Assembly (NCBI GenBank): GCA_020073265.1
Contig: JAIQFN010000008.1
Coordinates: 62,001-126,000 of the forward strand
Direction: 5' to 3'
Length of the DNA: 64,000 nt
From: Terriglobia bacterium
GTDB taxonomy: Bacteria; Acidobacteriota; Terriglobia; Bryobacterales; Bryobacteraceae
Shown here: positions 281 to 27,714 of the stretch, piece by piece
How the letters are laid out: each line of letters opens with the position of its first letter
Position numbering within the stretch: position 1 is the first letter of the stretch
The notes under the pieces: generated by a model
Database searches by the model: none
The model's input: the letters and a program-made list of their open reading frames with translations, nothing else
What the model was told of the DNA's origin: nothing
Made by a program: the position numbers and the translations under genes

Positions 281-2332
281 ATGACTTCCTCCCACGACGC
301 AAATCCTCTCCTTGAACGCAGATTTCAAATACCCTTCGACCAGATTCGCGCCGAACATGTTCAGCCGGCCATCGCTGAGCTGCTGGGCGACACGCGCGGG
401 CGATTGGATCAACTGATTTCCGACCCGGCGCCGCGCAGCTTCGCCAACACGATGGACGTTCTGGACGGCTTGACTGAGCGTCTGGACTACGCCATCGGGA
501 TCGTGCGCCATCTGGAGGCGGTCGCCACCACGCCGGAACTGCGGGCGGCCTACAACGCCGCGCAGCCGGACGTGAGCGAGTTTCACTCTTCGCTGCCGTT
601 GAACGAAGGCTTGTGGCGCGCGGTGCAGTCCTATGGCGAGAGCGAAGAAGCCAAGAGCCTGACCGGATCGCGGAAACGTTTCCTGGAGAAGACCATCGAT
701 AATTTCCGCCGGCATGGAGCCGAACTGGATGCGGCCGGCAAGAAGCGTATCGCCGAAATCGACGTCGAGCTCACCAAACAGACCATCCGCTTTTCAGAAA
801 ATGTGCTGGATTCCATCAACGAATTCGAGCTGGTGGTCCGGGATGAGAGCAAGCTGGCCGGTCTGCCGGCGGGCGCTCGGGCCATGGCGCGGGCCAGCGC
901 GGGTTTCAAGGGTCTGGAAGAGCCGTCCTGGCGGTTCACGCTGCAGGCGCCCAGCTACATCGCGCTGATGACCTACCTGGACGACGCAGCCATCCGGCGC
1001 GAGGTCTACGAAGCTTTCGTGAACCGGGCCGTGGACGAGAAGCACGACAACCGCCCGGTGATGCTTCGCATCCTGGAGTTGCGGCGCGAGAAGGCGAATC
1101 TGCTGGGCTACCGGGATTTCGCAGACCTGGTGCTGGAAGACCGCATGGCGCACACCGGCCATCGCGCCCAGGAGTTTCTGGCGGATCTGAAGCAGAAGAC
1201 CGAGTACCATTTCCGCAAGGAGAACCAGGAGCTGGAGGCTTTCGCGGGAAAGGTGCCGGAACCCTGGGACATCGCCTACTACGCCGAAAAGCAGCGGGCG
1301 GCGCTGTACAACTTCGACGAAGAGGAGTTGCGGCCGTATTTCGAGCTGGATCGCGTGGTGCAGGGCATGTTCGAGATCGTGCGAATGCTGTATGGGATTC
1401 GAGTGCTGGAGAAGCAGGGCGTGCCGGGTTGGGATCCGCAGGTGAAATACTACGAGATCCGCGACGGCGACACGCTGATCGGCGCCTTTTACGCCGACTG
1501 GTATCCGCGCGAGAACAAGCGGGGCGGCGCCTGGATGGACGCCTTCATCACCGGGATCGCGCGCGACGACAGCCTGGAACCGCACGCGGGGCTGATTTGC
1601 GGGAATCTGACTCCTCCGGTGGGCGAACGTCCGTCGCTACTGACGCACCGCGAAGTGCAGACCATCTTTCACGAGTTCGGCCACCTGCTGCACCACTGCC
1701 TGAGCAAAGTGGAGGTGCGCAGCCTGGCGGGCGTGAACGTGGCCTGGGATTTCGTGGAGCTGCCGTCGCAGATCATGGAGAACTGGTGTTGGGAGCGCGA
1801 GGCACTGGACCTGTTCGCGCGGCACTATCAGACCGGTGAGCTGATTCCGCGCGAGCTTTTTGACAAGATGCGCAAGACCCGCACGTTCCGGGCGGCCAAC
1901 ACGCAGATGCGGCAGCTCGGCCTGGGCTTCGTCGACCTGGCTCTGCATCGTGAATATTTGCAGCACAAAGATGGCGATTTAATGCTGTACGCGCGGCGCA
2001 TTTTGCAGGAATTCTCGCCGGTTCCCCTGCCGGAGCGCTACAACATGATCGCCGCTTTCACGCACCTGTTCACCAGCCCGGTGGGGTACGGCGCCGGCTA
2101 CTATTCCTACAAGTGGTCGGAGGTGCTGGACGCGGATGCGTTCACCATGTTCCAACGGCGCGGCATCTTCAGCCGCGAAGTAGGCACGCAGTTCCGCCAG
2201 AGGCTGCTCTCGCGAGGCAACAGCGAGGACCCCGCGGATCTGTACCGCAGCTTCATGGGGCGGGATCCGGATCCCAACGCGCTGCTGGAGCGGTGCGGCT
2301 GGCTCGCAACCACGTCCAGCGGCCAACCCTGA
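281..2332 (+). CDS. prlC: M3 family oligopeptidase (oligopeptidase A / peptidyl-dipeptidase type)
   Basis: A 683-residue cytoplasmic zinc metallopeptidase of the thimet oligopeptidase family (M3), predicted to cleave short peptides during protein turnover. The zinc motif HEFGH is at residues 464-468, with the third ligand Glu493 in FVELPSQIMENW, 25 residues beyond the second His as in the family. The conserved C-terminal tyrosine/glycine stretch (SPVGYGAGYYSYKWSEVLDAD) is also present. There is no signal peptide. Length is normal for the family (about 680). The ATG follows a TATAAT box closely and has no strong Shine-Dalgarno. A downstream inverted repeat may end the transcript. Oligopeptidase A and dipeptidyl carboxypeptidase are hard to separate from sequence alone; the length and motif spacing favour the former. 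Confidence 0.93.
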   Translation: MTSSHDANPLLERRFQIPFDQIRAEHVQPAIAELLGDTRGRLDQLISDPAPRSFANTMDVLDGLTERLDYAIGIVRHLEAVATTPELRAAYNAAQPDVSEFHSSLPLNEGLWRAVQSYGESEEAKSLTGSRKRFLEKTIDNFRRHGAELDAAGKKRIAEIDVELTKQTIRFSENVLDSINEFELVVRDESKLAGLPAGARAMARASAGFKGLEEPSWRFTLQAPSYIALMTYLDDAAIRREVYEAFVNRAVDEKHDNRPVMLRILELRREKANLLGYRDFADLVLEDRMAHTGHRAQEFLADLKQKTEYHFRKENQELEAFAGKVPEPWDIAYYAEKQRAALYNFDEEELRPYFELDRVVQGMFEIVRMLYGIRVLEKQGVPGWDPQVKYYEIRDGDTLIGAFYADWYPRENKRGGAWMDAFITGIARDDSLEPHAGLICGNLTPPVGERPSLLTHREVQTIFHEFGHLLHHCLSKVEVRSLAGVNVAWDFVELPSQIMENWCWEREALDLFARHYQTGELIPRELFDKMRKTRTFRAANTQMRQLGLGFVDLALHREYLQHKDGDLMLYARRILQEFSPVPLPERYNMIAAFTHLFTSPVGYGAGYYSYKWSEVLDADAFTMFQRRGIFSREVGTQFRQRLLSRGNSEDPADLYRSFMGRDPDPNALLERCGWLATTSSGQP

Positions 2333-2345
2333 GCGCGCGGTGTCA

Positions 2346-2359
2346 GCCCGCTGACGGGC
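2346..2359 (+). terminator. Short GC-rich inverted repeat after the oligopeptidase gene
   Basis: GCCCG-CTGA-CGGGC forms a five-base-pair stem with a four-base loop 14 bases after the stop codon. No T-run follows, so it is only a possible terminator or 3' stabilising hairpin. Confidence 0.25.
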
Positions 2360-2491
2360 GGGATGTTACGACACGCGGCCGCGGCGGTTCACTTTTAAAG
2401 CAACATATCCAGGCGCAGCGCAATCCAATCAAGTAGGCGGGTGAACTATACTTGAACCCGGGCGCACCGCGTTAGCTGGAAGGTTTTGGCT

Positions 2492-3622
2492 ATGAGATCG
2501 AACATTCGACTGGGCCGTTTTTTCGGGATCGAAGTGGGGCTGCACTATAGCTGGTTTCTGATCGCCTTCCTGATCACCATGTCGCTGGCCGCGCAATTCC
2601 GCGAGACCAACGCCTCCTGGGGCGCGGTGGTGATCTGGGCGGTTTCCATCGTGACGGCGGTGCTGTTCTTCGCGGCGCTGCTGGCGCACGAGATGTCGCA
2701 TGCCCTGGTGGCCCGGGCGCACGGCCTCACTACACGGGCCATCACGCTGTTTGCCTTGGGCGGCGTGGCGCAGATCGAGAAAGAGCCGGCGGACGCGAAG
2801 ACCGAATTCTGGGTCGGAATCGTCGGGCCGCTTTCGAGCGCCGCGATCGGTTTGGTTTGCCTGCTGATCGCCTGGGCGGCGGGATGGCGGGGAGCGCCGG
2901 CGCCGGACACGCCGATCGCAGCCATGTTCCTCTGGCTGGGCTACATCAACTTCATGCTGGCGGCGTTCAACATGATTCCGGGATTCCCGCTGGATGGCGG
3001 CCGGATCCTGCGCTCCATCATCTGGTGGCGAACCGGCAGCGGCGAGCGTTCCACGAAACTGGCCGCGCGGATCGGACAGACCGTAGCGCTGCTGTTCATC
3101 GCGTTCGGCATTTTCCGCTTCTTCGGCGGGGCCGGGTTCGGCGGGCTGTGGATCGCCTTCATCGGCTGGTTCCTGCTGCAGGCCGCCGGCGCCAGCTACG
3201 CCACGGTCACGCTGACCACCGGATTGAAAGACGTCCGCGTCGGCGATGTGATGAATCGCGATTGCACGCCGGTGGATGGGAACCTGAACGTGGAGACTTT
3301 CGTCGAGGACTACCTGCTGCGCACCGGGCGGCGCTGCTTTGTGATCGAGCAGAATGGCGAGATCGCGGGACTGGTGACGCCGCACGAGATCAAGGGCCTG
3401 GAGCGGCAGCGCTGGCCCTACACCACGCTCTACGACGTGATGCGTCCGCTCGATCAGTTGCATACCGTGACGCCGGCCACTCCGGTGATGGAGGCGCTGG
3501 AGACCATGGGCCGCGATGACGTGAATCAGCTTCCGGTGGTCGCCAACAACCATCTGGAAGGAATCGTCACGCGCGCCAACGTGCTGCAGTTCCTGCAGAC
3601 GCGCGCCGAATTGGGCAGGTAG
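2492..3622 (+). CDS. Site-2-protease-like M50 membrane metallopeptidase with CBS domains
   Basis: A 376-residue integral membrane protein. The zinc motif HEMSH is at residues 66-70 inside a hydrophobic segment. The second family motif, NMIPGFPLDGG, is at 160-170, where Asp168 is the third ligand. About six membrane segments fill residues 15-225. The C-terminal part carries a CBS pair (about 230-290 and 310-376), which usually senses adenine nucleotides. The family cleaves transmembrane substrates, often to release regulators, but no substrate is suggested here. The frame opens at a TTG at 2486. ATG 2492 is preferred because a GGAAGG Shine-Dalgarno lies eight bases upstream and the downstream protein begins like other family members (MRSNIRLGRFFGIEV). 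Confidence 0.92.
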   Translation: MRSNIRLGRFFGIEVGLHYSWFLIAFLITMSLAAQFRETNASWGAVVIWAVSIVTAVLFFAALLAHEMSHALVARAHGLTTRAITLFALGGVAQIEKEPADAKTEFWVGIVGPLSSAAIGLVCLLIAWAAGWRGAPAPDTPIAAMFLWLGYINFMLAAFNMIPGFPLDGGRILRSIIWWRTGSGERSTKLAARIGQTVALLFIAFGIFRFFGGAGFGGLWIAFIGWFLLQAAGASYATVTLTTGLKDVRVGDVMNRDCTPVDGNLNVETFVEDYLLRTGRRCFVIEQNGEIAGLVTPHEIKGLERQRWPYTTLYDVMRPLDQLHTVTPATPVMEALETMGRDDVNQLPVVANNHLEGIVTRANVLQFLQTRAELGR

Positions 3623-3700
3623 CGCGATAGCGGGCGGAGCCTGGCCGAAATGGCCGCCGCGTTGAGCCCGGGCGCTGCGAAGTTTGGTAAAGTAGGCGCA

Positions 3701-4651
3701 GTGCGAACCGCGTTGATCGCAGCCAGCGTGATGGTGTGTTGGGCTGCTTCCACCGACGATCAACAGTTCAACGGCCGCTGGGACATCCAGGTGAATGGCT
3801 TGTCTTCGCCGCGCGGCTGGTGGCTGGAGGTGTCGGGCGCGGGCACCAGCAGCCTGAAGGGCAAGTTTGTCGGCGCTCCCATCGGGCAGGTGGACGACAT
3901 CCCCAAGCTGTCGATCTCCGACGGCGAGCTGCGATTCGCCATACAGAACCGTTACCGCAGGAACGGCGTGGAAAAGGGACTGTACTGGGCGCGCCTGGCG
4001 GACGGAAAGCTGAAAGGGACTTTCGAGATCGAGGGAGATCCTTCTTCCTACCTGGAGTGGACCGGCATGCGGGCGCCGGCGCTGCCGGAAAAAGATGACG
4101 CGAGCTGGAAGAAAGGCGCGCCGGTGGTTCTGTTCGACGGGCACGATCTGGGCGGCTGGCAGACGGTCGGGTCGGTGCGCACGTTGGGATGGACGGTGAA
4201 GGACGGGCTGCTGACCAACGGGCTGGGCAATACCAATCTGATATCGGACGAAAAATTCTGGAACTTCGCTCTGGATGTGGAGTACAGGATCGGCCACAAT
4301 GCGAACAGCGGGATCGGACTGCGGGGGCGGTACGAAGCGCAGATTATCGATGACGCCGAAAAGCCATTGTCGACCAACAGCAGCGGGGCGATCCTGGGCC
4401 GCATCGCGCCGGTTCTGAATGCGGCCAAGCCGGCGGGCGAGTGGCAAAGCATGTCCATCCGGCTGGTGGGACGGCAGGTCACGGTATTGCTCAACGGCGC
4501 GCGAGTCATCGAGAAGCAGAACATCGAGGGTCCCACGGCCATCGCGCTGGACACCAATGAAACCGATCCTGGCCCGATTCTGCTGCAAGGCGATCGCGGG
4601 TCGGTGGCCTTCCGGAAGATCGTCGTTTATCCTCTGACCAAGAAGCCTTGA
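3701..4651 (+). CDS. Secreted DUF1080 (3-keto-disaccharide hydrolase-like) protein
   Basis: About 316 residues. The GTG start at 3701 is chosen because it gives a signal peptide at once (VRTALIAASVMVCWAAS), whereas the longer frame from ATG 3650 adds 17 unlikely residues. The N-terminal half is a small beta-rich domain. The C-terminal part is the DUF1080 concanavalin-like fold with FDGHDLGGW, WTVKDGLL, NSGIGLRG and a late GPILLQGD block. Members of this fold bind or hydrolyse modified sugars, and many are of unknown function and exported by Acidobacteriota and Planctomycetota. The next gene overlaps its stop codon, suggesting one transcript. Confidence 0.8.
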   Translation: MRTALIAASVMVCWAASTDDQQFNGRWDIQVNGLSSPRGWWLEVSGAGTSSLKGKFVGAPIGQVDDIPKLSISDGELRFAIQNRYRRNGVEKGLYWARLADGKLKGTFEIEGDPSSYLEWTGMRAPALPEKDDASWKKGAPVVLFDGHDLGGWQTVGSVRTLGWTVKDGLLTNGLGNTNLISDEKFWNFALDVEYRIGHNANSGIGLRGRYEAQIIDDAEKPLSTNSSGAILGRIAPVLNAAKPAGEWQSMSIRLVGRQVTVLLNGARVIEKQNIEGPTAIALDTNETDPGPILLQGDRGSVAFRKIVVYPLTKKP

Positions 4652-22187: not shown

Positions 22188-22844
22188 GTGGCCCGGATAG
22201 TCTACCTGCACGGCTTCGCCAGCGGCCCTGGATCCAAGAAGGCGCGCTTCTTCCGGGAGCGATTCGCCGAACTGGGGATCGGGCTGGAGATTCCCGACCT
22301 GGCCGAGGGCGATTTCGCCGGCTTGACGGTCAGCGGGCAGCTCCGGGTGATCGAGCGGGCCAGCCGCGGCGAGCCGGTTACGCTGATGGGTTCCAGCATG
22401 GGGGGCTATCTGGCGGCGCTCTATGCGGCGCGGCACCCGGAAGTCGACCAAGTGGTGCTGATGGCGCCGGCGTTCTGTTTTCTCAAGCGCTGGCAGGAGA
22501 CGCTGGGTCCGGCCAACATGGAGAAGTGGCGCACATCGGGATCGCTGGAGGTGTTTCATTACGGCGAGGGGCGCGCGGTGCCGGTCGGCTACCAGTTGAT
22601 CGAAGATGCGCAGCCGTACGAGGATTATCCGGCCGCTTCCCAGCCGGTTCTGATCTTCCACGGGCAGAACGACACGGTGGTGCCCCCGGAGTACTCGGTG
22701 GAATTCGCGCGCCGGCATCCTCGGGCGACGCTACGCCTGATGAACTCCGACCACGAACTGCTCAACGTGCTGGACGACATGTGGATGGAGACTGAGGCAT
22801 TCCTGTTTGGCGGTCAGAGGACCGGCCGCTCGACGCCCGCGTAG
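22188..22844 (+). CDS. YqiA/YcfP-family alpha/beta-hydrolase (probable esterase)
   Basis: A 218-residue serine hydrolase. YLHGFASGPGSKKARF is the oxyanion region, GSSMGG contains the nucleophilic Ser (about residue 67), the Asp is in GQNDTVVP and the His in SDHELL. There is no signal peptide, so it is cytoplasmic. It starts at GTG 22188 with AGAGG upstream. E. coli YqiA hydrolyses short palmitoyl-CoA-like or p-nitrophenyl esters; the natural substrate is unknown. It is divergent from acpP. Confidence 0.85.
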   Translation: MARIVYLHGFASGPGSKKARFFRERFAELGIGLEIPDLAEGDFAGLTVSGQLRVIERASRGEPVTLMGSSMGGYLAALYAARHPEVDQVVLMAPAFCFLKRWQETLGPANMEKWRTSGSLEVFHYGEGRAVPVGYQLIEDAQPYEDYPAASQPVLIFHGQNDTVVPPEYSVEFARRHPRATLRLMNSDHELLNVLDDMWMETEAFLFGGQRTGRSTPA

Positions 22845-22914
22845 ATCTCGCGTGAGCCGCACCTTGCCCAGAGCGGCGGAAGCTTATACGATCGATACTA
22901 TCGCGTAGGATCGC

Positions 22915-24486
22915 ATGCCGGAGGGCACATCGACAGGGCGCTGGCGGCAACTGGAGGACATTCTCTCCAGCTCCTGGCGGATGCCCGCGGATCAGCGGGA
23001 AGCGTACTGGGCACGGTGTGCGGCCGGAGACGAGGCGCTGTTACGAGAATTGCGTGAGTTGTCGGCTGCGAAAGAACGCGCCGACCGATGGAGCGGAGCC
23101 AGCGCCGCCGAGGCCGCGGAAGCGCCTCCGCGCCGCATCGGTCCCTACGAACTGGAGCACTTGATCGGCCGGGGCGGCATGGGCGCGGTGTATCTGGCGC
23201 ACCGCGCCTACGGCGAGTTCGATCAGCGGATCGCGCTGAAGTTGATCGGTCTGCCGTTCGAAATCGAGCCCTTTCGCGAGCTCTTCCGCCGCGAGCGCCA
23301 GATCCTGGGCGGTCTCAGCCATCCCAACATCGCGCGCCTGCTCGACGGCGGCACCACCGACGACGGCGAGCTGTACCTTGCGATGGAATACATCGACGGC
23401 GTCGCCATCGACAGGTACGCGCAGGGCCGGAGCCTGTCCGAGCGTCTTGGCTTGTTCGCGGATGTGTGCGCGGGCGTCGAATACGCGCACCAGCGTCTGG
23501 TGGTCCATCGCGACATCAAGCCTTCCAACATTCTGGTCAACGAGCAAGGTGTGCCGAAACTGCTGGATTTCGGTTCCGCTAAACTGCTCGCGGGCGCTGA
23601 AGTCACGCGGACCGGCTTCGGCATGATCACGGTCGCGTACGCCAGTCCGGAGCAGTTGCGCGGGGAGGCGGCATCCACCTTGAGCGACGTGTTTGCTCTG
23701 GGCGTGCTGTTGTTCGAACTGGTGGCCGGGCGCGGGGCCTTCGGCGGCGACCTTACGTCCCGATTGGCGGACCTTAAAGAGCATCGCGACACCCCGGACC
23801 TGCCGGAACGGCAGCCGGGTGACCTGGACCGCGTGGCGCGCAAGGCGCTGGCGTTCGACCCAGCTCAGCGCTATTCCTCGGCCGGGCAGCTCGCCGAGGA
23901 CGTGCGCCGATTCCAGGCCGGCGAGCCGGTGGCCGCGCATCCTCCGTCCTTGGCCTACCGAGCCGGAAGATTTGTCCGGCGGCACATGATCGGAGTCGCC
24001 GTCGCGGTCCTGATCATTCTCTTGATGGCGACAACGTCCGGCGCATTGCTGCAATACATCCAGACTTCGAATCCCATTCATCGCGAGTATCTGGAGGAAG
24101 CCGTCCGATTGGGACGCATCTATCCGATGGAAGTGGACAGCCTGGCGCGCTCGGCGTCGCTGCAGGCCTTGGCTGAATCGTATCTCGCCGCACCCGGAAG
24201 CGCCGAAGAGCACTATCGCCAGGCCTACCCGCTGATTCAGGAGGCCTTGACACTGGACCGCGCCGACCCTTCCCATGGATCTCAGCTTCTGCTCAGCCTC
24301 GAATCCTCGGGCCGTATCAATCGCTTCCTGGGCCACTACGACCAGGACGAAGCGGCCCAGCGCGAAGCCTACCAATTGACCATTCGGCTGGCAGGGCCGG
24401 ACCACGTAGCCACGTCGAATAAGCGCGCCATCTGGGCCATCAGCCTCACCGCGATTCGCGCGCCAGGCTGTCGGCGATGGCTTTGA
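22915..24486 (+). CDS. Membrane-anchored Ser/Thr protein kinase with rearranged C-terminus
   Basis: A 523-residue bacterial Hanks-type kinase. The glycine loop is IGRGGMGAVYLA (84-95), ATP lysine Lys109, catalytic HRDIKPSN with Asp200, and DFG Asp218; APE-like SPEQL follows. One transmembrane helix lies at about 358-380 and a helical, TPR-like external region follows. Relatives from Acidobacteriota usually carry several more TPRs. Here the TPR region stops abruptly, and the last ~14-20 residues (KRAIWAISLTAIRAPGCRRWL) are encoded by the antisense of an ECF sigma gene fragment (24446-24598). The kinase is probably intact as an enzyme but its sensor part looks cut by a rearrangement. Confidence 0.88.
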   Translation: MPEGTSTGRWRQLEDILSSSWRMPADQREAYWARCAAGDEALLRELRELSAAKERADRWSGASAAEAAEAPPRRIGPYELEHLIGRGGMGAVYLAHRAYGEFDQRIALKLIGLPFEIEPFRELFRRERQILGGLSHPNIARLLDGGTTDDGELYLAMEYIDGVAIDRYAQGRSLSERLGLFADVCAGVEYAHQRLVVHRDIKPSNILVNEQGVPKLLDFGSAKLLAGAEVTRTGFGMITVAYASPEQLRGEAASTLSDVFALGVLLFELVAGRGAFGGDLTSRLADLKEHRDTPDLPERQPGDLDRVARKALAFDPAQRYSSAGQLAEDVRRFQAGEPVAAHPPSLAYRAGRFVRRHMIGVAVAVLIILLMATTSGALLQYIQTSNPIHREYLEEAVRLGRIYPMEVDSLARSASLQALAESYLAAPGSAEEHYRQAYPLIQEALTLDRADPSHGSQLLLSLESSGRINRFLGHYDQDEAAQREAYQLTIRLAGPDHVATSNKRAIWAISLTAIRAPGCRRWL

Positions 24487-24598
24487 GGCGCGGATACACC
24501 AGCGGCATCAATTGCTCGAGGGCTTTCTTCTCGCCCTCGCGCCACCGGCGCAGTAGAACTGTAATGTCTCCCTCGGACACCTTTCCATGATGAGGCAT
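24446..24598 (-). pseudogene. 5' fragment of an ECF-type RNA polymerase sigma factor gene
   Basis: ATG 24598 to TGA 24446-24448 encodes 50 residues. The part EGDITVLLRRWREGEKKALEQLMPLVYPRLKAIA matches the N-terminal region 2 of the ECF-like sigma factors that accompany TPR-linked Ser/Thr kinases in Acidobacteriota. Regions 2.2-4 are missing. The fragment is convergent with, and overlaps, the truncated kinase gene, so it appears to mark a deletion/inversion junction. Confidence 0.7.
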
Positions 24599-24698
24599 TG
24601 TGCTCTGCGTTTGCGCACCCACTGGTAGAGCGCGATGCTGGTTCCACTGAGTTCAAATCACGAGCTTGGTCAACATGTTGGACGACGTTCTGTCGGCG

Positions 24699-25274
24699 TC
24701 AGGACGCGGGGAGATCGACGCGGTCGTAGATGCGCGCGATGGGAAGGGAAACGCCGATCGAGTCGAGCTTCAGTTCGTCCTCCAGCCGTCGATAGTCGCG
24801 CAGAGTCCAGCTGCCATCGCCGCCCCGAGTGTACTGCTCGATCAGAACCCGGTCTTGCTCAACGAGAACGTATTCCTTCAGCGACTCGATGCCGCGATGG
24901 TGCTGGAACTTGACTCCGCGGTCGTACTGCTCGGTGCTGGGAGAGAGGATTTCGAAGATCACGGCCGGATTGAGAAGGATGTCCTGGCGTTCGTCGGCAA
25001 GCTTTGGCTTTCCGCAAACGATTGTGACGTCCGGATAGACATACATTCGACTGGCGACGCGGACGCGAAAATCGGATGGCAAAACCTCGCATCCTCTTTC
25101 GCGAAGAGACGGTTGCAATTCGTTGTACAAATTCAACTGGAGCCGTGCGTGGGCCAAGGAGGCTCCGGACATGGCCCACATCTCACCGTCAACGAACTCG
25201 CTGCGCACCTCGGCGGCGCGGTCCAACGCCAGATACTGTTCTTCCGTGACCTTAGTAACCGGATTCGAGGCCAT
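24699..25274 (-). CDS. Uma2 family putative endonuclease
   Basis: A 191-residue protein of the Uma2/DUF820 family, with a PD-(D/E)XK nuclease fold. EEQYLALDRAAEVRSEFVDGEMWAMSG, VYPDVTIVCGKPK (catalytic Asp region), PAVIFEILSPSTEQYDRGVKFQHHRGIESLKEYVLVEQDRVLIEQYTR are typical, including the E-I-L-S-P motif. These are often multicopy in Acidobacteriota, cyanobacteria and Chloroflexota and their role is not established. It stands alone next to the rearranged kinase/sigma junction. Confidence 0.87.
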   Translation of the reverse strand: MASNPVTKVTEEQYLALDRAAEVRSEFVDGEMWAMSGASLAHARLQLNLYNELQPSLRERGCEVLPSDFRVRVASRMYVYPDVTIVCGKPKLADERQDILLNPAVIFEILSPSTEQYDRGVKFQHHRGIESLKEYVLVEQDRVLIEQYTRGGDGSWTLRDYRRLEDELKLDSIGVSLPIARIYDRVDLPAS

Positions 25275-25340: not shown

Positions 25341-26582
25341 ATGCGAGCCGCGGCATTTCTGGCTATCGCGAGTGCCGCGATCCCAGCCGCGGCCTTCGGG
25401 CAAATTCCACCCTCTGAAGCGTTGTCGGCAACGGATTCGCGTCTCTTCCACCAGGAACTGCAGCGCGTGGAGGGCCAGCTCGAAACCGCCGGCGACAAGT
25501 GCACCGTCATGTATGCTCTGGCCCGGACGTGGGCGAGCGGCGGGCAGTATCGCGAGGCTCTGGAGACACTCAAGAAAGTCGCAGCCTTGCGCGTCGGGCT
25601 GGATCCATCCAGGGACGAATTCTTTGCAAAACTGCGGGGGACCAATGAGTTCGAGCAGCTCCTGAAGCAGATCCGCGAGGACAACCCGCCAGTGTTTACC
25701 AGCCATCTCGCCTTCACCATTCCAGAGGCTGATCTCTTCCCTGAAGGAATCGCCTACGATCCAGTTAGAAACCAGTTCTTCCTGGGAAGCACATTCAAGC
25801 ACAAAATCATCCGCTGTACTCGCGCGGGCGTTTGCCGGCCGCTGGTGAAGGACGCACAAGACGGCCTGGACCAAGTGCTGGGGCTGAAGGTCGATCCGAA
25901 GGACGGAACCGTATGGGCCGCCAGTAACCGGGACGCCGAGTCCGGCCTGTTTCACTACACGGTTCCGTCCGGCAACCTGATGGGCAAGTACACTCTCAGC
26001 CGCCGATCAGGCCGACACTTGTTCAACGACCTGGCGATCAACTCAAGCGGCGATGTGTTCGTCACAGACACGCAGGCAGGGACCGTTTACTGGGTTTCGC
26101 GCGCGACGGACCATCTTGAAGTGTTCGATCCGCGCTTGAAGGTCACCGCCGCCAACGGCATCGCGATATCCTCCGACGGCCGTAAGCTGTACGTGGCCGG
26201 CTTTCCCGACGGGATCACGGTGGTCGATCTCGCGGCCAGATCTTTTCGCGCGATGGAGCACCCGGCCGGCCTTTGTCTTGCGACTATCGACGGCCTCGCG
26301 TTTTCGAACGGCGACCTGATCGCGATTCAAAACGGAATCATGGCGAATCGAGTGGTTCGCTATCGCCTGAGTCGCAACCTAAACGCAATCGAAGGGTTTG
26401 ACGTTCTCGAACGCGGCAATCCACTGTTCGATGGAATCACAACGGGCGCAGCCGGCAACGGCAAGTTCTACTTCATGGCGAACACACAACTCGACAAGGT
26501 TGTAGATGGCAAGATCACGCCCGGCGTAAAACTGAATCCGATAAAAATCCTGGAGACGCCCCTGCCTACTGCTCGACGCTGA
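25341..26582 (+). CDS. Secreted SMP-30/NHL-like beta-propeller protein
   Basis: A 413-residue protein with a signal peptide (MRAAAFLAIASAAIPAAAFG). Residues about 25-115 are helical and TPR-like (ALARTWASGGQYREALETLKKVAAL). The rest resembles a gluconolactonase/SMP-30 propeller: FPEGIAYDPVRNQFFLGST, LNDLAINSSGDVFVTDTQAGTVYWV-like blades and ANGIAISSDGRKLYVAGF. Metal-ligand identity with true lactonases is not clear, so it may be only a structural relative. It is convergent with the next gene and overlaps it by 17 bases. Confidence 0.72.
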   Translation: MRAAAFLAIASAAIPAAAFGQIPPSEALSATDSRLFHQELQRVEGQLETAGDKCTVMYALARTWASGGQYREALETLKKVAALRVGLDPSRDEFFAKLRGTNEFEQLLKQIREDNPPVFTSHLAFTIPEADLFPEGIAYDPVRNQFFLGSTFKHKIIRCTRAGVCRPLVKDAQDGLDQVLGLKVDPKDGTVWAASNRDAESGLFHYTVPSGNLMGKYTLSRRSGRHLFNDLAINSSGDVFVTDTQAGTVYWVSRATDHLEVFDPRLKVTAANGIAISSDGRKLYVAGFPDGITVVDLAARSFRAMEHPAGLCLATIDGLAFSNGDLIAIQNGIMANRVVRYRLSRNLNAIEGFDVLERGNPLFDGITTGAAGNGKFYFMANTQLDKVVDGKITPGVKLNPIKILETPLPTARR

Positions 26583-27714
26583 CCCACGCCTGCTTCTGCG
26601 CGCTCTCCGCCACTTTCTCCAACAGACGCATCCCGACCAGCCCGTCGGCGAAGGTCGGATACTCAACCGGCGCCGCCGCATCCGCCACCCTGGCATAGAA
26701 CCGCTTGAACACCTGCTTGTGCGTGTCGTCGTAGCCTTCGCTGTGCCCGCCCGGCAGGTCGGCAAAACGGGCCGCCTCCGGATACATCAGCGAAGGATCC
26801 TTCACCAGCACCCGGTTGGGCTCGTCGCGCCGGCCGATCCACAACTCGTCGGGCCGCTCCTGATTCCACGACACGCCCGCTTTCGTTCCATAGATGTCGA
26901 AGGTGAACATGTTCTTCCGGCCCGCCGACATCTGGCTCACCGTAAACACGCCGCGCGCGCGGTCGCCGAGCCGCAGCAACACCGATCCGAAATCCTCGGT
27001 ATCGATTGGCGTCGATTCATAATCCTTTGGTTGAAGCTGCTTGCCCGCGAAGGTCTCCACCGACCCCTTCGGCCGTTTGCGGGTCTTATGAAAAGTCGCG
27101 AGATCCGCGCACAGCGCCGTGATCCCGAGGCCGGTCAAATGTTGAACCATGTCCATCCAGTGCGATCCCAGATCGCCCACCACGCGCAGCGTCCCGTTCG
27201 CCGCTGAATCGATGCGCCAGTTCCAGTCGGTGTCCCACAGCAGCCAATCCTGCGAGTAGGTCCCCTGCACGATCAGGATCTCCCCCAGATCCCCGCGCTG
27301 GATCATGCGCCGGATCTGCTGCACCACGGGGTAGTAACGCAGATTATGTTGAAGGCAATTCGCCAGGCCGGTCCGGGCGGCCAGATCCACCAGGTCGCGC
27401 GCCTCCGCCACCGAGATTGTGAAAGGTTTTTCACAGAGTACGTGTTTGCCGGCTTCGAGCGCCGCCCGGCACATGGGATGATGCAGCGCGTTCGGGGTGA
27501 GCACGTGAACCGCCCGGATGGTCCGGTCTGCGAGGAGCGCGCGGTAATCCCCGGAGGCTCGATCCACTCCAATGCTCTGCGCGAACTGCCGCGCCTTCTC
27601 CTCGCTCGAGCCGGCCACGGCCGCGATTTCCACGTGGCCCAGCCGCCGGACGTTCTCGGCGTGCACCTTGCCCATGAAACCGGTGCCGATGATGGCGATC
27701 TTCATTTTTTCCAT
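26566..27714 (-). CDS. Gfo/Idh/MocA family NAD(P)-dependent oxidoreductase
   Basis: A 382-residue sugar or inositol-type dehydrogenase. The Rossmann start is IAIIGTGFMGKVHAENVRRLG, the signature EKPF appears in LEAGKHVLCEKPFTISVAEA, and the C-terminal alpha/beta substrate domain (about 130-360) includes GDLGSHWMDMVQHLTG with the usual active-site His. An in-frame ATG at 27705 is an alternative start with a GGA close upstream. The substrate is unknown. The protein ends with a conserved QxLLEAVxxSAxxxxWV-like tail (LLEKVAESAQKQAWV). Confidence 0.9.
   Translation of the reverse strand: MEKMKIAIIGTGFMGKVHAENVRRLGHVEIAAVAGSSEEKARQFAQSIGVDRASGDYRALLADRTIRAVHVLTPNALHHPMCRAALEAGKHVLCEKPFTISVAEARDLVDLAARTGLANCLQHNLRYYPVVQQIRRMIQRGDLGEILIVQGTYSQDWLLWDTDWNWRIDSAANGTLRVVGDLGSHWMDMVQHLTGLGITALCADLATFHKTRKRPKGSVETFAGKQLQPKDYESTPIDTEDFGSVLLRLGDRARGVFTVSQMSAGRKNMFTFDIYGTKAGVSWNQERPDELWIGRRDEPNRVLVKDPSLMYPEAARFADLPGGHSEGYDDTHKQVFKRFYARVADAAAPVEYPTFADGLVGMRLLEKVAESAQKQAWVSVEQ

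Follow-up and report, generated by a model that had tools for sequence, protein, structure and literature searches.

A truncated Ser/Thr kinase gene joined tail to tail to the remnant of an ECF sigma factor gene in a Bryobacteraceae genome

Results

Genes and features of the locus

The window analyzed here is a stretch of 64,000 nucleotides from contig JAIQFN010000008.1 of a Terriglobia bacterium (Bryobacteraceae). Between an esterase gene (est) and a Uma2-family gene (uma2), it carries a Ser/Thr kinase gene that runs at its end into a fragment of an ECF sigma factor gene on the opposite strand. The features are listed below in window coordinates.

22188-22844, + strand: esterase/alpha-beta hydrolase gene (UPF0227, YqiA-like), left neighbour; Pfam UPF0227, E 3e-26
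22845-22914: 70-bp gap upstream of the kinase gene (six-frame reading and tblastn)
22915-24486, + strand: Ser/Thr kinase ORF, 523 aa (open frame 525 aa)
22915-24417, + strand: kinase-homologous part of this ORF (Pfam, and tblastn with four kinases)
24136-24150 and 24458-24472: arms of a perfect 15-nt inverted repeat, in the kinase tail and in the sigma stub
24418-24457: best placement of the rearrangement junction (tblastn of four kinases and four sigma factors)
24418-24486, + strand: new kinase C-terminus, 22 residues and a stop codon; some of it is antisense to the sigma remnant
24446-24598, - strand: Sig-70_X6 ECF sigma remnant, 50 codons from ATG plus stop
24599-24698: interval upstream of the sigma remnant, up to uma2
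24699-25274, - strand: Uma2-family gene, right neighbour; Pfam Uma2, E 3.8e-34

The kinase and its shortened tail

The kinase is of the Hanks type, because Pfam Pkinase (PF00069) matched residues 78-322 (E 1.7e-41) with 142.8 bits against a gathering cut-off of 31.7. GxGxxG, the ALK lysine, HRDxKPxN (here HRDIKPSN), DFG, and SPE, which we take to be the catalytic motifs of Hanks-type kinases, are all present in an alignment of five kinases. A probable membrane helix was judged by eye from the hydrophobic residues ~356-378. It is followed by a TPR-like stub reaching to residue ~497-501. The TPR matches were below the Pfam cut-offs both when the whole protein was searched (TPR_12, E 0.0034; TPR_10, E 0.069) and when the tail was searched alone (24085-24417; 2.5e-4 and 1.7e-3, respectively).

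The protein is short for its kind. It has 523 aa, compared to 729-912 aa in the four close relatives in the five-kinase alignment, and its 525-aa open frame compares to 812-1168 aa in the eight closest places of its own genome. A TPR-tailed sigma-partner kinase would be expected to have a long tail (more than ~700 aa in all) and an adjoining intact sigma gene of the same kind; here the kinase ends at 523 aa, and only the 50-codon stub adjoins it. All eight closest own-genome paralogues (E < 1e-60) have an X6 sigma gene upstream, which in one case is interrupted by the end of the contig. An earlier sequence-only reading of the locus had proposed that the TPR tail is shortened, and these lengths bear this out.

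The G+C content at the three codon positions is 0.72/0.49/0.80 in the kinase domain part and 0.68/0.44/0.74 in the tail, which is thus still coding-like. Overall G+C is 0.654 in the kinase gene and 0.61 in the sigma frame. These values are near that of the window (0.621) and so do not hint at a foreign source.

The sigma remnant

The 50-codon frame matched positions 3-40 of 183 of TIGR02999 (Sig-70_X6) with E 1.6e-5, and a search of the whole genome with this family found the same place (E 3.7e-4). Homology to sigma factors spans 24458-24580, and everything beyond residue ~42 (of ~190) is gone. The frame scored 24.8 bits as a whole protein, below the curated cut-off of 126.15, and was homologous to the N-terminus of intact members of the family. 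It is 62-65% identical over ~40 residues to the intact sigma factors of genomes G119, G198, and G117, which in turn matched this stretch of the window with E 1.6e-13 to 1.5e-12. Judged by these similarities, the sigma match is not due to chance, and the frame is sigma-derived and lacks the downstream parts, as the sequence-only reading held. With most of sigma2 and the whole of sigma4 missing, the stub is a remnant that cannot work as a sigma factor.

The three intact sigma factors are 55-62% identical among themselves (40 columns), no higher than the 62-65% of the stub. The codon-position G+C of the stub is 0.70/0.42/0.72. The stub is therefore as well preserved as the intact sigma factors, and the truncation looks recent. 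Because a non-functional stub is equally preserved, the open frame of the kinase is weak evidence of function.

Origin of the remnant

In 150 of 257 genomes from the order, a count that includes the own genome, the stub was matched at E <= 1e-5. Outside the own genome, it was closest to the sigma factors G198:C170 (48.6 bits), G119:C77 (48.1 bits), and G117:C70 (44.6 bits), followed by matches of 41.6 bits and below. The kinases adjoining the G198 and G119 sigma genes belong, with the kinase of the window, to one five-member clade (99/93, tree of 60 rows), and the G198 kinase aligns with the latter over residues 10-501, i.e., into the tail. Since the top two stub matches adjoin kinases of this clade, a common origin of kinase and stub in a single module is most likely; the stub would thus be what the sequence-only reading took it for, the remnant of a sigma factor of the kind that partners this kinase. 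No related kinase was found within the 5 kb examined near the G117:C70 sigma gene. Sigma factors of the own genome are 18-48% identical to the stub (10 sigma factors, 40 ungapped columns).

The own genome has 33 TIGR02999 matches. The strongest orphan C-terminal piece (contig C117, 78 bits) was considered as the missing half of the sigma gene and rejected, because over the matched part it is near-identical to the adjacent C117 sigma gene. This piece (G000:C117:1607-1909, locus L018) is a broken near-copy of its neighbour that keeps the C-terminal part, and thus another decaying sigma gene of the same family. The one other match confined to the kinase tail, on C76, was likewise dismissed as the severed kinase half, as it lies in a TPR-rich 412-aa frame with no kinase match. 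Elsewhere, C117 (1-450) carries sigma residues 3-153 and C131 (58083-58169) carries residues 155-183 beside a kinase gene. These two pieces seem to be one sigma gene split by contig ends, and the two contigs are probably neighbours.

The junction

Three sigma factors (G198, G119, G117) align down to 24458, and that of G109 stops at 24473. On the other side, the alignment with the G198 kinase reaches 24417, and the sequence, read in the sense of the kinase, remains TPR-like up to ~24405. The left limit of the junction is soft, because three of the four kinases (G118, G119, G109) align only to 24054-24084. The resulting placement (24418-24457) fits the breakpoint at 24420-24450 suggested by the sequence-only reading. 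That reading had the two genes joined tail to head; they are in fact joined tail to tail, with the cut 3' sides of both facing each other. It had also described the end of the kinase as antisense to the first 50 codons of the sigma gene. An antisense overlap does exist, in that ~13 of the 22 new C-terminal kinase codons overlap the sigma frame, but they lie opposite its last codons (~37-50). The novel C-terminus itself, 22 residues past the last kinase homology, was correctly recognized.

The sigma homology and the second arm of the 15-nt inverted repeat (24458-24472) stop at exactly the same position. The longest word common to the coding strands of kinase and stub is 15 nt; the maximum in 1000 shuffles was 14 (3 times), and 60 other kinase genes shared at most 13 nt with the stub, although the repeat was singled out after the fact. 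Its kinase arm lies ~270 bp inside the tail, away from the junction, and the repeat alone therefore does not explain the join. It may be due to chance or be a trace of recombination.

No sigma 3' end was recognizable in the 70-bp gap upstream of the kinase gene (22845-22914) with four intact sigma factors in tblastn (best E 3.8). Searches of the own genome and of 60 relatives found the junction region nowhere else (E <= 1e-5).

Orientation of sigma-kinase pairs in relatives

Genome G198 (locus L172) has an intact sigma gene (+, 1292-1888) and an 806-residue kinase frame (-, 1891-4308) that are convergent, with open frames 3 bp apart. The kinase of the window groups tightest with those of G109, G118, and G119 (100/98), and its branch length of 1.02 is like that of G109 (1.06). 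In both G109 and G119, the kinase gene is codirectional with the sigma gene and downstream of it, overlapping it in G109; the G118 contig ends before any sigma gene. In the genus of the window's genome, G001:C113 and G002:C251 have convergent sigma and kinase genes 908 bp apart, with kinases of a different clade from that of the window.

A redundant count of 89 sigma-kinase ORF pairs comprises 70 codirectional pairs with sigma upstream and 4 with sigma downstream, 7 convergent pairs (3 distinct places), and 8 divergent pairs. The divergent pairs, a third orientation, include L174 and L159 (G139) and L203 (G123). All 10 pairs found on one contig in the own genome are codirectional with sigma upstream. 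The orientation of the kinase relative to the sigma gene is thus labile among relatives. By our own reading of the tree, an early convergent switch with a switch back costs the same as two convergent switches.

Some of these loci hold a further gene ending in what we take to be a PEP-CTERM-like motif. Such genes lie between the sigma and kinase genes in G119, where all three are codirectional, and in G002, where sigma and kinase are convergent, as well as beside the G118 kinase (L149, L148, L221). They accompany kinases of either orientation and may belong to the sigma-kinase module.

Neighbours and history of the site

The est and uma2 genes are convergent, and their 3' ends abut or overlap in the sister species G002 and G004. 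The order etfB-fabF-acpP-est is common to G002, G003, G004, and G008, with one further ORF between acpP and est in G004 and another gene between est and uma2 in G008. No Uma2 match was found in the G003, G007, and G005 loci, and none of six relative loci had a kinase or sigma match (E <= 1e-4). With no kinase or sigma match at these loci and est directly beside uma2 in G002 and G004, a gain of the module in the lineage of the window's genome is probable; its loss in the sister species instead is less likely.

A direct repeat of 20 nt (85%) pairs 22759-22778 with 24667-24686, and together with pairwise alignments it had suggested a decayed copy of the esterase 3' end flanking the insert. Alignments of esterase ends to the interval 24599-24698 were equalled or bettered by 8 (own genome, G000), 1 (G002), 47 (G004), and 56 (G003) of 1000 shuffles, and those of two further relatives by 231 and 275. 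A first esterase profile, in which uma2 sequence and the esterase of the window itself were included, gave E 8.5e-7 at this place. A stricter profile, built from the sister species only and with uma2 trimmed, found nothing, and the idea of an esterase 3'-end remnant beside uma2 was abandoned. An invertible switch of the whole insert was also rejected, as none of the 25 of 30 inverted pairs shown links its outer ends.

Beyond uma2, an SMP-30/gluconolactonase-like gene (25341-26582) precedes an oxidoreductase gene (26566-27714). In G004, the uma2 and oxidoreductase genes are ~30 bp apart, and no SMP-30/gluconolactonase-like match was found there. A second gene not common to G004 thus adjoins the first. 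The uma2 copy of G004 (L065:4835-5403) lies in two frames with a stop after ~56 residues, and looks frameshifted.

Search for close relatives of the kinase

None of 60 relatives matched the kinase at E <= 1e-100. Of 256 other genomes of the order, with the best five candidates per genome scored, three matched at E <= 1e-95, all with frames of 740-912 aa; none of these closest outside kinases is truncated. No relative of more than 54% identity was found among the best five candidates of each of the 257 genomes of the order, and the best identity among 72 confirmed loci was 51%. The search also covered all candidates in 10 genomes, and the best three per genome when the G198 kinase was searched against the 257 genomes. 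With no relative above 54%, the locus as it was before the event has not been seen, and it may have arrived already truncated. The better kinase matches include three records labelled Acidobacteria (L072, L073, L075). Megablast against 72,556 plasmid records, which detects near-identical DNA only, gave no match.

Discussion

We favour, with a probability of about 0.52, an origin of the locus by deletion of the facing 3' ends of a convergent pair. An ECF sigma/Ser-Thr kinase module would have been gained between the convergent est and uma2 genes, with its two genes in the tail-to-tail arrangement that G198 has kept intact. A deletion would then have taken the sigma gene beyond residue ~42 and ~300 codons of the TPR tail of the kinase (measured against G198). 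What is left of the kinase frame continues across the join for another 22 residues, which in part are antisense to the sigma gene. By analogy with EcfK-PknS and EcfP-PknT, the kinase of the intact module might sense through its tail and activate the sigma factor by phosphorylation. This circuit would be cut here, leaving an orphan kinase that is decaying or acts on something else. In support, the G198 pair is convergent and intact, so that a single deletion suffices. The absence of a recognizable sigma 3' end from the 70 bp upstream also favours deletion, because an inversion in a tight codirectional pair would initially have put one there. Several observations count against it. The tightest-grouping kinases with a sigma gene in view (G109, G119) are codirectional with it, the 5 kb examined around the third-best sigma match (G117:C70) contain no related kinase, and the own genome holds weak sigma matches (<32 bits) that cover only later positions. 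In addition, the 15-nt repeat could point to recombination other than simple deletion.

The sequence-only reading had explained the join by an inversion. By its own account, finding this arrangement in a relative whose genes are intact and longer would speak against it; one such case was found, G198. An inversion in a codirectional sigma-kinase operon, with ends in the sigma gene after codon ~42 and in the kinase tail and with later loss of the reciprocal junction, is a tentative alternative: possible, but not required given the G198 pair. The prevailing order of the family agrees with such an ancestor (70 of the 89 pairs and all 10 of the own genome), as do the nearest kinases with a sigma gene in view, and the equal cost on the tree leaves room for it. 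The perfect inverted repeat, one arm of which stops at the sigma side of the junction, lends some weight to inversion. However, the kinase arm of the repeat is set back ~270 bp into the tail, with TPR-like sequence continuing past it, and no inverted repeat among the 25 of 30 pairs shown joins the outer ends of the insert. The reciprocal junction, with a sigma 3' half before the kinase gene and the severed TPR tail beyond that half, was not seen in the 70 bp upstream, and two events, inversion and loss, would have to replace one deletion from a convergent ancestor. What stands from the sequence-only reading is the truncated kinase, the sigma remnant, the junction, and the new C-terminus, whereas its polarity of the join and its description of the overlap do not.

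A misjoined or collapsed stretch in the assembly could have produced the junction, the more so as this is a draft of 131 contigs (98.18% complete, 3.34% contamination) in which contig ends (C117/C131) seem to interrupt another sigma gene of this family. We consider this unlikely, since the est-uma2 neighbourhood of the sister species reappears in the outer flanks on both sides, and no further copy of the junction was found in the own genome or among 60 relatives. It is very improbable that the locus is a selected, working variant, in which the antisense-derived C-terminus stands in for the distal TPR tail and the kinase acts without its sigma factor. The intact catalytic motifs and 523 open codons, the coding-like composition of the tail, and a branch length close to that of G109 would suit such a variant, but the surely non-functional stub is equally preserved in identity and codon-position composition, so that preservation says only that the event was recent. 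Truncated relatives were found neither among the 60 genomes at E <= 1e-100 nor among the three matches at E <= 1e-95. A rewired orphan kinase with an overprinted C-terminus, read in part antisense to its own former sigma partner, is likewise very improbable. The locus has the look of normal genome decay, not of a gene of a new kind.

The locus is a small example of the loss of a member from an expanded sigma-kinase family, with both genes broken at one junction. Perhaps more useful is that orientation in this family is labile (codirectional, convergent, or divergent, sometimes with a PEP-CTERM-like gene between), and orientation alone is therefore no basis for inferring a local inversion. Titles and abstract openings of the open-licence literature contained nothing on this locus or on convergent Sig-70_X6/kinase pairs.

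The closest likeness is to the modules of the order that combine a Sig-70_X6 sigma factor with a transmembrane TPR-tailed kinase (G198:C170, G119:C77, G109:C365). The locus has in common with them the kinase domain, the membrane helix, the start of a TPR-like tail, the sigma N-terminus, and the adjacency of the two genes, in the convergent order of G198. Unlike in those modules, the sigma gene is cut after ~42 of ~190 residues, the kinase has 523 aa, the two cut ends are joined, and no partner sigma gene is left beside the kinase. According to PMC13147305 and PMC8999054, EcfK-PknS of Xanthomonas citri and EcfP-PknT of Vibrio parahaemolyticus are ECF43 sigma/kinase pairs in which the kinase is encoded beside the sigma factor and the latter is activated by phosphorylation. 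The principle of a kinase beside a sigma factor is the same here, and an ECF43-type mode may be supposed for Sig-70_X6 by analogy; in contrast to those pairs, the stub of the window breaks off ahead of most of sigma2. In Planctomycetota and myxobacteria, TPR-tailed Ser/Thr kinases likewise combine a kinase domain with a C-terminal TPR array, and a passage in PMC11032199 gives the kinase domain of the Planctomycetota proteins as predicted to be cytoplasmic and the TPRs as mostly periplasmic. In the kinase described here, this array is cut to a short stub.
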